This document shows, in pieces, positions 39,081 to 45,300 of a DNA stretch of 64,000 bases. How positions within the stretch are numbered: the stretch's first letter is position 1; every line of letters starts with the position of its first letter. The position numbers and the translations under genes were made by a program. The notes below the pieces were generated by a model, which worked only from the letters and a program-made list of their open reading frames with translations, was not told the DNA's origin and did no database searches. The DNA is from Dimargaris cristalligena (Eukaryota > Kickxellomycota > Dimargaritomycetes > Dimargaritales > Dimargaritaceae), in the NCBI GenBank assembly GCA_027576995.1, contig JANBQC010000076.1:1-64000 (forward strand). Reading direction: 5' to 3'.

Positions 39081-40516
39081 CCACACATTACTGGTTGGTC
39101 CACCAGCACCCAGGTGATATTTGGGCTAGCCCTATAAAATTTATCCAATCATCTTTGCACCCCTCTACACCGTACTTCTTTGATTATTCCTCCAGGCATA
39201 CCCATCAGATACATTCCTCCTCCTGTGTATTGCCCGTCCATTCGCTTAACCCTTCCATTATTATTGAGCTCGTTCTATTTTATTTCATTTGATTACATCT
39301 TGTTTTGTTTTCCATCTCATTATTTTCCATGGGGCCTCACTGGGTTCCTACCCGTTTACTGTGTCCGTTTGTCCGTATGTTTAAATATCCCAATATAATC
39401 CCGAGTGGCGTACATAAATACTTTTCGTTACCCCCACCGTATGGCTATTTATGGAGAAACTGGTCAGATACTTGTTTATTTTTAGATGCCGATTAAAAGT
39501 GGATGTGTTGGGGGTGATTGCGATCTTCTTTTTTTATAATTTTTTATTTAATCGTTTAATCCTAGATGCCGTTGACTATGTTGGCATCTAATGCATTCGT
39601 CTATTTGAGCCGCTGCGGACCATCCCTGGTCGGTATAAGGCCTGTTCGGGGGGTTCGAATAGCACACGTCCTTGAACCTTCGGCGCATTAAAGCCCAGTG
39701 ACTAGATTAAAATATCGCCCCTAAACATAGGCAAAAAAGGAGGACCTGGGCACTGTAAGGATTTAATATTGGGTAGAATCAGGAATAATATGTTATGCTT
39801 AGAATAATACAACATGGGGGGGAGGAATCACGCTGCAGCTTTGGGGGACCCTGGGGGTGATTAATTTGCCTCCCTGCGGCGGTATTCGACTTTCGTAATG
39901 AAGGCCCAGACCAACAGTGAGGGGTGTTGGTGTATAGGCGAGGAAATGGTCTCGCTTCTTGTTTAACCTACAGGGACATGTCAAGCCGACTGTTGCCTGG
40001 TACCCTAAACAATCCGCCGCTGCCACCTTGCAGGTCGTTATGGACACTCCGCGACTCCGATGCCCTGGCGACATGGGCGTTTTTGGCGGTGTTTAATGAT
40101 ATTTTTTGAATCGGCAATGGTGTGTGTAACTCTATTTTTCCCCTATGATGTAGTAGTGTCTGTTTCTCTCTAAAAGGATTGGCCGTACTGCGGTACCAAG
40201 GAGGCGCGCGAGTTGCTTCCAGCACCCCCTTTCTTTGGGTTGCTTATTCTCCGTTCCCACAGGCCACTTGTGCAATTTGGCAAGTTCTGATTGGCTGGGC
40301 CGGGTAAGATCACCTGCCACTCAGAAACGGCCACGTAAAACCGTAGAGAATCCAACACTATGAGTGTGAGGGGATATGGAATCTAGGGGATAATAATTTA
40401 ATAGCCGTCTACGCCTATACTATATATTACACAGTACACTGTTATTGTAATATATCTTCTACTGAGGGAGTGGCTTCAGAACAACTATTATATTTCCCCC
40501 GACCTTGGCACGGCCC
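39001..40516. other. Spacer between eIF3m and the bZIP gene
   Basis: It starts with a (TC)n run at about 39046-39075, then AT-rich sequence with no supported gene. Confidence 0.5.
39046..39075 (+). repeat. (TC)n microsatellite in the eIF3m 3' flank
   Basis: About 14 TC units, 45 bp after the eIF3m stop codon, probably inside the 3' UTR. Confidence 0.8.
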
Positions 40517-40523
40517 TATATAA
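40517..40523 (+). promoter_or_regulatory. TATA box of the bZIP gene
   Basis: TATATAA about 195 bp upstream of the ATG at 40716, followed by a pyrimidine-rich leader. One of the clearest core promoters in the window. Confidence 0.55.
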
Positions 40524-40715
40524 GCCTTGTCCAAGTCGCGCCCGCGTTCGTTGATTTATGCATGTCTACATTTTACGGCCGTTTGTCTTGTGTGCTTAGT
40601 ATACCATTTTACCGACTTTCTTAATTAATTCTCTTGGTTTGGCTTGGCGAGTCCTTCCTTCTGCTTCTCCCTTAACTCCCCTCCGCGCTTTCCCACTGCC
40701 TTCTCTCCGCCTCCC

Positions 40716-42391
40716 ATGTCTGACCCCATGCGACAAGCCGCAGCCTCCACTTCGCCAACCGCCGAAGCGGAACCCCCCAGCGGTTCTGGCGGGACTGAGC
40801 CGTCGTCCAACTGGTGGTACACCACCGACTTGACCGCCTCTTCGTCCATGGACACCTCGAGCTTGACCAACCCGTCTTTGAGCGATAAGGCCGCCCTGGA
40901 CCTGCTGTTGTATTCGTTCCTTAGGGAGTCCGGGCTGAATGCCTCCAACGATTCCGCAGGGGAGTCGTCAGCGGCCGCAGCAACGGCCCCCGAGCAGGCA
41001 CCCACCAGCCCCTCTTCGGCTCTACCGCTGCTGCGGCCTCGCCTGTCCACCCACTCCAGCCAGCCGATCTCACCCGAGACTGGCGCAGCGGGAGCGGCCC
41101 CGTCACGGAAACGCACCGTCGCCGAGCGCGAGGAGTCCGTCTGCGAGTCCGTCGAGGGGAGTAGTAGCCCGGCGTCGTCGGTCATGACCACCGCCGTGGA
41201 ATCCCCGGCTTCCCAAGGTCCCCCCGCCCCCAAACGCTCCCGCAAGGCGCTGAGCGAGGCGGAGGTACGCCAAAAGAAGCAGGAGCGCAGCCGGCGGAAC
41301 CGCGATGCCGCCCAGCAGTCCCGCGAGAAGAAGAAGCAGTTCATCGCGGACTTGGAGGTCCAGAACGGCCAATTGCAAAGTGAAAATGGGGAGCTTCGGG
41401 CCCGCATGACGGACCTCGAAACCCAGAACCGGGCGCTATGGGAGCGGCTCGAGTCCCTTACCCAAGTCGTACAGCAGCTTCACTCCCCCCTGGGAAGTGC
41501 GACGCTCGGTCCGATGGCCCAGGCGGGCGGCGTTGGCCTGGGTGCGTTGCCGGGTTTGCTGGGTGTTGGCTCGGAGGGCCTACTTGGCTTTGGAGGACAG
41601 GGGGGCATTCAGATTTCCTCGGCTGGTTTTGGCGAGTCGGCAGTACTCGACCAGTTGGGCTCCGTGCTTTGGCCGGGGCTCAATTCTCGGCAGCAGAGAC
41701 CAGTCCAGGGGCTGTCCATCCCTCTCCCTCCCCAAGTCCTAGTTCCCCTCCAGTCAGCATCAAGCCCGAACCCGCTTCACCCCATGTTCAACCTAATCCC
41801 CACCTCCACCACCATACCAACGACGACCAGCTCCGGTCAAGTGGCACACCCTTCGACGGCGTCCCCCATATGGACGACGCTGAACTCGGTCAGTTCCTGG
41901 ACGCCCTTCTCACTGCCTACCCAGCCGCTACCGCCGACCCTGCTGGCGCTCTGGTCAGCCTACTATGCCCATCTCACTGCTCCACCCCTCAGTCCCAGCG
42001 GTCCAAACATAACATCCCCTCCCCAACAACCACTGGCGGACAGGGTACTCCAGACCTGGGCCACCCTTCGCCTCTCAGTCTACTGGATTGTTTGCCGTCT
42101 CCGGCAGTACTCCCTCCGTCTTCAGCCTTTGCTCAAATGTACCCAAAGCTGGAAACCATCGCAGCGCCGCCGGCTATTGCACTTCCTCAGTAAGGCCCTC
42201 CAGTCGCCCAATCAGTCCGTTCGCAAGCAGGGCCTGTCGCTGCTAGCACTTCCCGCTGTTTCTCGCACTACTACTTCTATTACTACTTCTTCTTCTTTAG
42301 CTCCCGGTGCTTCGTTGCCCAATCCAGTGTCTACTCCGACTCCAACCTCTTTGCCTGTTTCGCTTGGGATGTCATCACTCCCGTCCATTAA
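40716..42391 (+). CDS. bZIP transcription factor, Hac1/XBP1-like, with C-terminal frame switch
   Basis: The first open frame encodes an acidic/Ser-rich N-terminus (1-165), then PAPKRSRK, the basic region QERSRRNRDAAQQSREKKKQ (189-208, with the DNA-contact pattern Asn195, Ala198, Ala199, Ser202, Arg203) and a leucine zipper with Leu at 213, 220, 227, 234, 241, 248 and 255. The NRxAAxQSREKK block is closest to Hac1, the unfolded-protein-response activator. After about 41640 the natural-looking sequence moves to another frame (PSPSPSSPPVSIKPEPASP, MDDAELGQFLDALL). That frame then runs to a GTAAGG donor at 42190 and, through a 111-bp intron with a strong pyrimidine tract, to the last exon (42301-42391, ending WDVITPVH). 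The first switch needs removal of 3n+2 bases. A 56-bp GTACTC...CAGAG intron (41643-41698) fits and gives 502 residues; Ire1-type splicing is the alternative. The original frame also stays open to 42494. Confidence 0.8.
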
Positions 42392-45300
42392 CTCCTCCGG
42401 AGAATTAGATGGGTGGTGGATGAATAACACCTGGGCTCTCCGCCGCGAAGACGCCTTTCGGCTGAGCCCCAAGCCCGTCGCCCTAACCTACTAGGAAGAG
42501 CCGGACACCCTAATTAGCTTTAATTCAGTCGACTACCATTTAAAATCATCTTTTCGGCTTTTAGTACCACTATGTAACAACAAAACCCTCCAATTTTTTT
42601 TACATTTTCCATTACCATAATGACATTCGCCTCCTCTCTTAACGTCCATACTACTACTCCTCTATTTATAATACCGCCCACACAATAAACGTCCAACGAA
42701 TTAATGAAGTACGGCCTCACTCGGCGGGAATGTATTAATAAGTCCCGTGCCACAGTAATTTAAGGCCCAGTGTAATTTTAGATAGACTTGGAGTTAGGGC
42801 TGGGGCTGCCATGCTAATGTATTGAACTAATCTATCTCGGCAATGTCCACGCTTCGATGCAGATAACGATGTGCACTCGGGTTTAGTTGGGTCAAATTCA
42901 CCAAGTGGTCGTTAATGGAGTTGGTATAGGCACCTTATCTACCCCCCTCTCCGAACTAAAGAAAATCACATCTGTGACTTCTTTGAAGAGGGGGATATAC
43001 CACTATTGTTTTGGTGAGGCCATCAACAGTACTCCCAAGGGATTTGCCATAAGTCATCAAAACAAAAATTGCAACAGGGAGGAGATGGCCAGCGGGATGA
43101 TCATGGTGCCTTTTTTTTCGTTCAAAGCACGCCTCCCGTCATTGGGGATTTTCACCGAATGCCATCGCCCGATGACGCTTTCCTTCGGCCCCGCCGGCAC
43201 TGGACCCGAATCTTCAGGGTTCCCTTTTTCACTACAGCAGGCTGACTGCTTAGGTGACTTGGGGATGGCCCCCTCTGCTTGGCGGTCCCAATCCTTCGTA
43301 TTATTCGTGCTGCTCTCGGGCCTTCCTCAGTCAGTATGAGGGAGCCAAGACAAAAAGAGCAATAATATATCTATAGCTATATATATATATATATATATGG
43401 AGGCTGCGCAATACATTAAATAATGCTAGGGTCCATTGTTATTTTGGTATGTTTCGCTGGGAACTATATCCATCGGTGCCTCTTAAAAACAATAAAACTT
43501 ATACGAATGAGGCTATATTCCACTGCTCCACCAGGCCTATTGTATAGCGGCGAGAGTGGCTTCCTCGGTCGAGTCCTTCTAAATAGGACGAGCCAGGGGA
43601 GGATGCAGCCGGTTATTGGCTGTAAGCCTTGGAAACACCAAAGTAGATGTGGTTGTATAGAGATGGAGTGCGTGCACCTATTTCCGACTCGGTTTTTCAT
43701 AGTTAATATGTCCCTTTTACTCCCGCAGCCCCACCCTGATTGTACTCGGCGCTTCTATGGGTCCGTTTTCACTTCACTTCCCTCCAATGAAGTCTGCCGA
43801 ATGCACTGGCTGATCCATAACGATAGATAGGCAGCAGGCCCCTCTCGACACGACACGCGGGATACAGCCCTGCCGTTCTTCGGCCACTTGACCGGGTCAT
43901 TGGGACCAACCGTATCAGCATCATCCGCCAAGACCCATATAGCCAAACATAATATCCATAGTAGTCATCATAACCATAATCGTAGATTCAAAGATGGTCC
44001 TCTCTTCCTCCCTCCCCTCGCCTCTCCTTCCCCGACGCGTCGATTCATTCACGTTTCCAAGACAAACGACGTGTGTGTGTGTATCGCCCACCCCTTTCCC
44101 AGCTAGGAATAATCCACTACTCCCCCTCCATGTTGATAATGGGTTCCGCGGTTGGCCCAATTACCCTGCATCTTCCATTCCGCCCATTGTAACCATCGTG
44201 TGCTATATGCTATTAGTGGTGCCGCCGGGTCAGAAGGTGGTGGTGGTACCTTCTCTAGACACCACTGTGTATTGTTATTGCACCGGCTTAATCAGTCGGT
44301 TTAAGGGTCGGGAAAGAGAACGCCAAGTGGGCGGAGGTGAAGATGTAGAAGAAGAAGAAGAAGGTGGAGGGTAAGTAAGAGTTGACGGAGGGGGGGCGGT
44401 TCAGCCCAGGGGCACACACCACGGGTCCCCGATTCAGTCCCGCCACGGGATCCAAGTGTGGCTGGCCTGCATATCCACTCGGACGATGGCTCAAAAGAGA
44501 GAGAGAGAGAGAGTCCATGCCTACTCAAGTTGGCCCCCCACTCCCTCCCAGCAAAAAAAAATAGGGAGGAGGAGGAGGGGGAGGAAATAGAGTATGGCTA
44601 TACCTCCCTCCCCCCTTCCCCACTCGATGAGATTCCGAAATAATAATAATAATAATAGCGCACTGGTCACCCAATCTAGGTCTACTATCTACTACTCGGT
44701 GTGAGCGCGCTGGGTCCCACCACTGCGGGCGGCGGTGGTATAGGCGGTGACTTGGTTACTCGACAGGGCAGTGCAGTATTATTTTGACTGAAGAGCACAC
44801 TTTCGGCACATTTATTAGCTTCGCTAAATCAAGGACATGCCGCAAATTACTCGAGCCACCATGTATAGTCTTAGCCAAACCCGGTCTCTGGGTATAGGGA
44901 GATGGGGGAGCAACTGGGCAATCAATTGTACGCTAAAATGCATTTCAGAATGGGGGGAGGTACTTAATAAACCGCTAGGCTGCCGAAACGGCCCACGTTT
45001 TATTGATGAGGAATTAGGGGTGGGTAGTGAGGGGGGGGAGATAATGATGGAGTAGGGGCTGTGTCACGGCGACTAAGCTTGTTAGACTCTCGGGTAACAA
45101 CTCCCGGTAAATAAGCAACGTACTAGAGGTACATATAATAGGGCCGGGTAAGACGAATGAATGGATATGGGTATGAATAAGACATAAAACTAAAAGTACG
45201 CTTAAAAATGAACGGCAGGCGATGTGGACGGGCCCTATAGAAAAAATAGACGTGGTAGTGACTCCAGGGTACTAATCAGTGGCTATCGTAAAAGGGGTGT

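Follow-up and report, generated by a model that had tools for sequence, protein, structure and literature searches.

A putative HAC1/XBP1-type gene with paired Ire1-type splice sites in Dimargaris cristalligena

Does a fungal bZIP gene that stays open in two overlapping frames encode a regulator whose tail is exchanged when Ire1 cuts its mRNA? Such a gene lies at 40716-42494 of a 64,000-nucleotide (nt) stretch of Dimargaris cristalligena DNA (GenBank assembly GCA_027576995.1, contig JANBQC010000076.1, positions 1 to 64,000, forward strand), referred to here as the window. Judging from its sequence, the gene is very probably a regulator of the unfolded protein response of the HAC1/XBP1 type, whose mRNA would be spliced by Ire1 at 41640/41690 with a swap of the tail. 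The original prediction, made from the letters of the DNA, had already proposed a HAC1/XBP1-like gene; a frame-shifting intron of Ire1 type is the best supported of its ideas, but both of the concrete introns that it named fail.

The frame holding the bZIP runs from stop to stop over 40629-42494, with an ATG at 40716 and an unspliced product of 592 amino acids (aa). It is open to 42494, as had been predicted, and a real bZIP domain lies inside it (Pfam PF07716, 5e-09, and PF00170, 3.1e-08, both above the cut-offs). The stretch NRDAAQQSREKKK resembles what we take to be the basic region of HAC1/XBP1. A second frame overlaps the first over a computed span of 41384-42193, which agrees with the predicted end, and the computed phase bears out that the shift into it requires removal of 3n+2 bases.

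Paired Ire1-type sites and the predicted intron

Yeast Ire1 cleaves CNG^(C/A)NGN within a 7-membered loop, where ^ marks the cut (excerpts of PMC8104961 and PMC6037481). The sequence CGGCAG is present at 41638 and again at 41688, each time in such a loop, and the following features, all on the + strand, can be laid out around the two sites.

41633..41649, +, 5' hairpin CGAGU[CGGCAGU]ACUCG with a stem of 5 base pairs (bp) and a 7-nt loop; site CGG^CAGU at 41638-41644, predicted cut after 41640
41684..41698, +, 3' hairpin UUCU[CGGCAGC]AGAG with a 4-bp stem (one G-U) and a 7-nt loop; site CGG^CAGC at 41688-41694, predicted cut after 41690
41641..41690, +, predicted Ire1 intron of 50 nt (3n+2), in the phase that carries the bZIP frame over into the second one
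41654..41684, +, predicted intron-internal hairpin of 13 bp, pair probabilities 0.85-1.0
41616..41710, +, predicted exon-exon stem, 41616-41627 with 41699-41710, 11 pairs, probabilities 0.81-1.0
40716..41640, +, exon 1, N-terminal region and bZIP, from frames, Pfam (bZIP_2 match at 41271-41426) and codon score
41691..42193, +, exon 2 in the spliced frame, a Pro/Ser-rich, net acidic tail; stop at 42191-42193, codon support for 41851-42020 only
41641..42494, +, unspliced, net basic tail of the 592-aa product, from frame and charge count

Excision of 41641-41690 yields a product of 475 aa, against 592 aa unspliced. Nearby CNG/CNG sites had been said not to pair correctly; that statement overlooked the site at 41638, which pairs with 41688 at a distance of 50 nt and in the 3n+2 phase. 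CNG^(C/A)NGN occurs 20 times in 41200-42480, with stems of 5 and 4 bp at 41638 and 41688 and of 0-2 bp at the other 18 matches. Across the window there are 17 CNGCNGN loops on the + strand and 10 on the - strand whose stems reach 3 bp or more; they form two pairs 15-400 nt apart on the + strand and none on the - strand, and only 41638/41688 is in the 3n+2 phase. The other + strand pair, 61606/61712, has 4-bp stems 106 nt apart (3n+1), in a region whose open reading frames of at least 250 aa are on the - strand.

Second-order Markov versions of the gene contain some loop pair in 9.5% of cases; in 3.7% there is a 3n+2 pair, and in 1.0% such a pair has a stem of at least 5 bp. Likewise, when 41470-41760 was modelled with C or A allowed as the fourth base, a 3n+2 pair arose in 1.35% of versions, falling to 0.2% when its stems had to reach at least 4 and 5 bp. 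Twelve bZIP loci (nine from a first scan and three added later) were scanned for coding-strand pairs whose stems reach 4 bp or more; this gene and locus L011 alone have such a pair, and only in this gene is it a close one. With stems of at least 3 bp and both strands allowed, several of the nine loci have loop pairs 120-898 nt apart. At bZIP locus L011 (G000:C321), Ire1-like loops lie at coding-strand positions 1763 and 2078, 315 nt apart; this pair is in phase 0, so that excision would leave the frame unchanged.

The predicted fold of 41600-41720 has an energy of -53.6 kcal/mol, compared with -43.9 (standard deviation 3.7) for shuffled sequences, and 3/200 shuffles are as good. Pair probabilities were computed for the fold of 41590-41730, and in this predicted ensemble the stem of the 5' hairpin reaches 0.72-0.75. 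The exon-exon stem would keep the ends together for ligation.

The enzymes for such a reaction are encoded in the genome. A six-frame search of the 27.1-megabase assembly, whose counts are lower bounds, found at least one Ire1-type ribonuclease (RNase) domain, at least one Trl1-type tRNA ligase with ligase, kinase and phosphodiesterase domains, and Tpt1; RtcB was not found in this search. The Ire1 gene is located as follows.

L012:1200-5030 (G000:C137), Ire1, 1276 aa in an open frame read from its Met, comprising luminal stretch, kinase and RNase

Its luminal stretch resembles that of human IRE1 (E 5e-13). We infer from the sites, frames and enzyme genes that, under stress in the endoplasmic reticulum (ER), Ire1 would cut the mRNA after 41640 and 41690, behind the third base of each 7-nt CNG^CNGN loop. 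The 50-nt intron would be released in hairpin form, with the ends retained by the exon-exon stem, and the Trl1-type ligase would join them. The change of frame would replace the long, net basic tail of the uninduced 592-aa protein with the shorter, Pro/Ser-rich, net acidic tail of what may be the active factor, of 475 aa, or of 504 aa if a later, ordinary intron were used.

Coding support for the two frames

The two tails differ in charge. The spliced tail carries 13 D+E and 5 K+R in 167 residues, and its stretch MDDAELGQFLDALLTAY looks like a putative activation domain; the unspliced tail carries 6 D+E and 20 K+R in 284 residues. The unspliced tail is a distinct one, as proposed, but its description as partly hydrophobic is weakly supported, its best 19-residue mean being 0.99 against 1.03 in the spliced tail.

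Both frames remain open modestly beyond chance. When the sequence was re-drawn synonymously so as to preserve the spliced-frame protein, the bZIP frame stayed free of stops over about 41691-42190 in 6-7% of cases; in the converse re-drawings, which preserve the bZIP-frame protein, the second frame was free of stops in 10-12%.

Codon use was scored in two ways. With eight reference pieces, exon 1 left out, each of the three parts of exon 1 scores highest in the bZIP frame. Over the overlap the first codon score is ambiguous (spliced -0.256, unspliced -0.384, third frame -0.559). A three-frame score assigned the correct frame to 177/185 held-out coding pieces of 90 nt, 96/97 of 165 nt and 51/51 of 300 nt; since exon 1 is among its ten reference pieces, what it says of exon 1 is not an independent result. 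By this score 41851-42020 favours the second frame by 21.5 bits, a lead matched by 0.7% of Markov controls, 41691-41850 favours neither frame, and 42021-42189 tilts to the bZIP frame within chance. Codon use thus backs the frame switch in part.

At the 3' end of the gene, two further features are uncertain.

42190..42300, +, possible spliceosomal intron GTAAGG...TTTAG of 111 nt (3n), with no YTNAY branch motif
42301..42391, +, possible terminal exon continuing the spliced frame, with a lead of 11.3 bits

With 42190-42300 removed, the stop at 42193 would be lost and the spliced product would run on to 42391, reaching 504 aa. A lead as large as 11.3 bits is seen in 4.1% of controls, and in 8.3% when counted in that direction. 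The possible intron would give the spliced product another end, ...SDSNLFACFAWDVITPVH.

Alternative readings and points against Ire1 splicing

The same two frames would also be joined, free of stress control, by a constitutive spliceosomal intron of 56 nt at 41643-41698, one of the two introns named in the original prediction. Its ends are GT and AG and its phase, 3n+2, is correct, but its donor, GTACTC, is atypical, the YTNAY branch motif is absent, its G+C content is 62.5%, and both its GT and its AG fall inside the two Ire1-type hairpins; we consider it improbable. Loose intron motifs match 68 and 81 times per strand in the window, compared with 82 and 87 in the reversed/complemented sequence, and strict motifs 1 and 2 times compared with 4 and 3. 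Since these counts do not rise above those of the reversed sequence, they furnish no genome-specific splice-site model by which 41643-41698 could be judged.

It is quite improbable that the mRNA is not spliced at all, with the bZIP frame read through as far as 42494 and both the second open frame and the site pair accidental. Such a reading draws on the openness of the bZIP frame, seen in only 1.2% of second-order Markov versions of 41691-42491, and on a tilt of 42392-42494 to that frame by 10.6 bits, equalled by 14.1% of controls; against it stand the rarity of the paired sites, their phase, which is the one required, and 41851-42020, which favours the second frame. Ire1-type removal at other sites, either of the 26 nt at 41575-41600 named in the original prediction or of 53 nt by a cut after 41693 instead of 41690, is highly improbable: both lengths are 3n+2 and CAGCAGA at 41691 matches the motif, but neither that match nor CGGAGGG at 41572 (stem 0 bp) has a closing pair, and CAG/GGG breaks CNG^(C/A)NGN.

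Several results speak against Ire1 splicing at 41640/41690 itself. Structure prediction for paired 7-nt loops returned two such hairpins, but the canonical 3' hairpin is weak in the ensemble, with its inner three pairs at 0.11-0.15 and its outermost at 0.002, and a shifted register is favoured over it at 0.44-0.46. Pairing between intron and 5' untranslated region (UTR), as in S. cerevisiae, shows no excess, 72.7% of shuffled UTRs pairing equally well; such pairing is not family-wide, an excerpt of PMC3154848 describing it as absent in HXL1 and in short introns. The lead of the second frame over the whole overlap, 12.9 bits by the three-frame score, is within noise (22.7%). Neither the whole spliced protein nor its residues 172-270, used as queries in protein searches, gave an orthologue at E<=0.001; the E-values refer to 5.8 billion sequences, a scale on which a match confined to the bZIP could hardly reach that threshold. 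An Rfam scan of 40000-43000 at E<=5 gave no match. Finally, the sole Ire1 found in the genome lacks the catalytic Tyr.

The Ire1 of Dimargaritaceae and its known counterparts

All five Dimargaritaceae sequences seen lack this Tyr. The proteins nearest to residues 1040-1275 of this Ire1 are those of Dispira simplex (two entries, 63%), Dispira parvispora (62%) and Tieghemiomyces parasiticus (58%); the next Ire1 relative by score is from Apophysomyces (41%), and Coemansia sequences reach 45-48% over about half of the region. We aligned this Ire1 with the best 120 of 172 relatives, which gives five Dimargaritaceae (Kickxellomycota) sequences from four species and 116 others among the matches listed. 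The five form one fully supported group, in a tree with long branches. Besides Dispira and Tieghemiomyces the family holds one more genus, Dimargaris, to which elimination tentatively points for this DNA. Numbered as in yeast Ire1, their RNase centre departs from that of the 116 others at six positions.

1039, Glu in 5/5; others 100 K, 13 R, 2 G, 1 Y
1043, Phe in 5/5; others 115 Tyr and 1 Gly, in a sequence disturbed there
1050, Thr in 5/5; others 115 D, 1 gap
1053, Thr in 5/5; others 115 R, 1 gap
1059, Gly in 5/5; others 110 K, 4 L, 1 C, 1 R
1060, Val in 5/5; others 101 H, 14 N, 1 S

R1056, N1057 and H1061 are retained. The change Y1043F makes yeast Ire1 cleave about ten times more slowly, and its R1039 functions in RNA binding (PMC3149027, in part). 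That the Dimargaritaceae enzyme is active with Phe is suggested by the conservation of this residue across the family.

All five sequences carry the pair E988/K992 in the RNase alpha-1 helix at the dimer interface, in an alignment block without gaps in the rows printed; at position 992 the 116 others have D (114), E (1) or H (1), and K in none. This pair is characteristic of the yeast-like type, to which 33/230 orthologues belong, with 175/230 being S. pombe-like (PMC8104961, in part). The 116 others are mostly vertebrates, with no Saccharomycotina, in which the yeast-like type is known, among their names, so these counts do not establish that the yeast-like type is rare among fungi. Since the Coemansia relatives printed have D at 992, the change to K probably arose on the lineage leading to Dimargaritaceae. 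The tree does not join Dimargaritaceae Ire1 with that of yeast, which is a long branch there; the distance between the two lineages speaks for convergence. Taken together, the shared pair and the Phe at 1043 suggest an Ire1 that has converged on dedicated splicing and whose RNase centre has been rebuilt.

Compared with the splicing-only Ire1 of S. cerevisiae type, the system described here shares E988 and K992 (E/D and K/R being expected; PMC8104961, in part) and substrate loops that fit CNG^(C/A)NGN. It differs in Phe 1043, Glu 1039, Thr 1050 and 1053 and Val 1060, and in Gly 1059 (5/5), where that type mostly has Y1059 according to an excerpt of PMC8104961. Both loops are strict CNG^CNGN, and neither has the UG^C core found in S. 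pombe sites (PMC6037481, in part). Substrate loops and strict-splicing interface would fit one story, against which Gly 1059 weighs.

Like fungal HAC1/hacA and animal XBP1, the gene has, behind its bZIP, a frame-changing intron bounded by two hairpins with 7-nt CNG^CNGN loops, in a genome with genes for Ire1 and tRNA ligase. Its predicted intron of 50 nt compares with 19 nt in C. albicans, 20 in A. fumigatus, 252 in S. cerevisiae and up to 848 in the CTG clade (excerpts of PMC6222058 and PMC3154848). Unlike in those genes, the longer product here would be the uninduced one (592 versus 475 aa). Cryptococcus neoformans HXL1 is likewise a HAC1-like bZIP gene whose sequence makes it hard to recognize; its Ire1 intron, at 56 nt, is about as long, and a stem-loop is predicted at the intron boundaries. 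The gene belongs to another lineage, and its IRE1-dependent splicing was shown by reverse transcription PCR, whereas splicing here is a prediction (PMC3154848, in part).

Among the papers searched, none joins Dimargaris with Ire1, or Hac1 with Kickxellomycotina, and a search on HAC1 in zygomycetes gave nothing pertinent by title among the matches listed. The survey of such introns by Hooks and Griffiths-Jones (2011) may already describe a 50-nt intron in a relative.

Together, the gene and the enzyme extend Ire1-type mRNA splicing to Dimargaritaceae as a base-precise prediction. More tentatively, and with the odds somewhat against it, Ire1 of this family may have become splicing-only independently, its rebuilt centre without the catalytic Tyr matched to a HAC1 with two CGG^CAG loops, and both frames that overlap for about 500 nt may be in use, one for the long uninduced and one for the shorter active form. 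A salt bridge at the dimer interface has been proposed to decide between strict splicing and broad mRNA decay (PMC8104961, in part). A clade distant from yeast that has E988/K992, with Phe in place of the catalytic Tyr and Gly at 1059, would be a natural experiment on the salt-bridge model and on the RNase mechanism.

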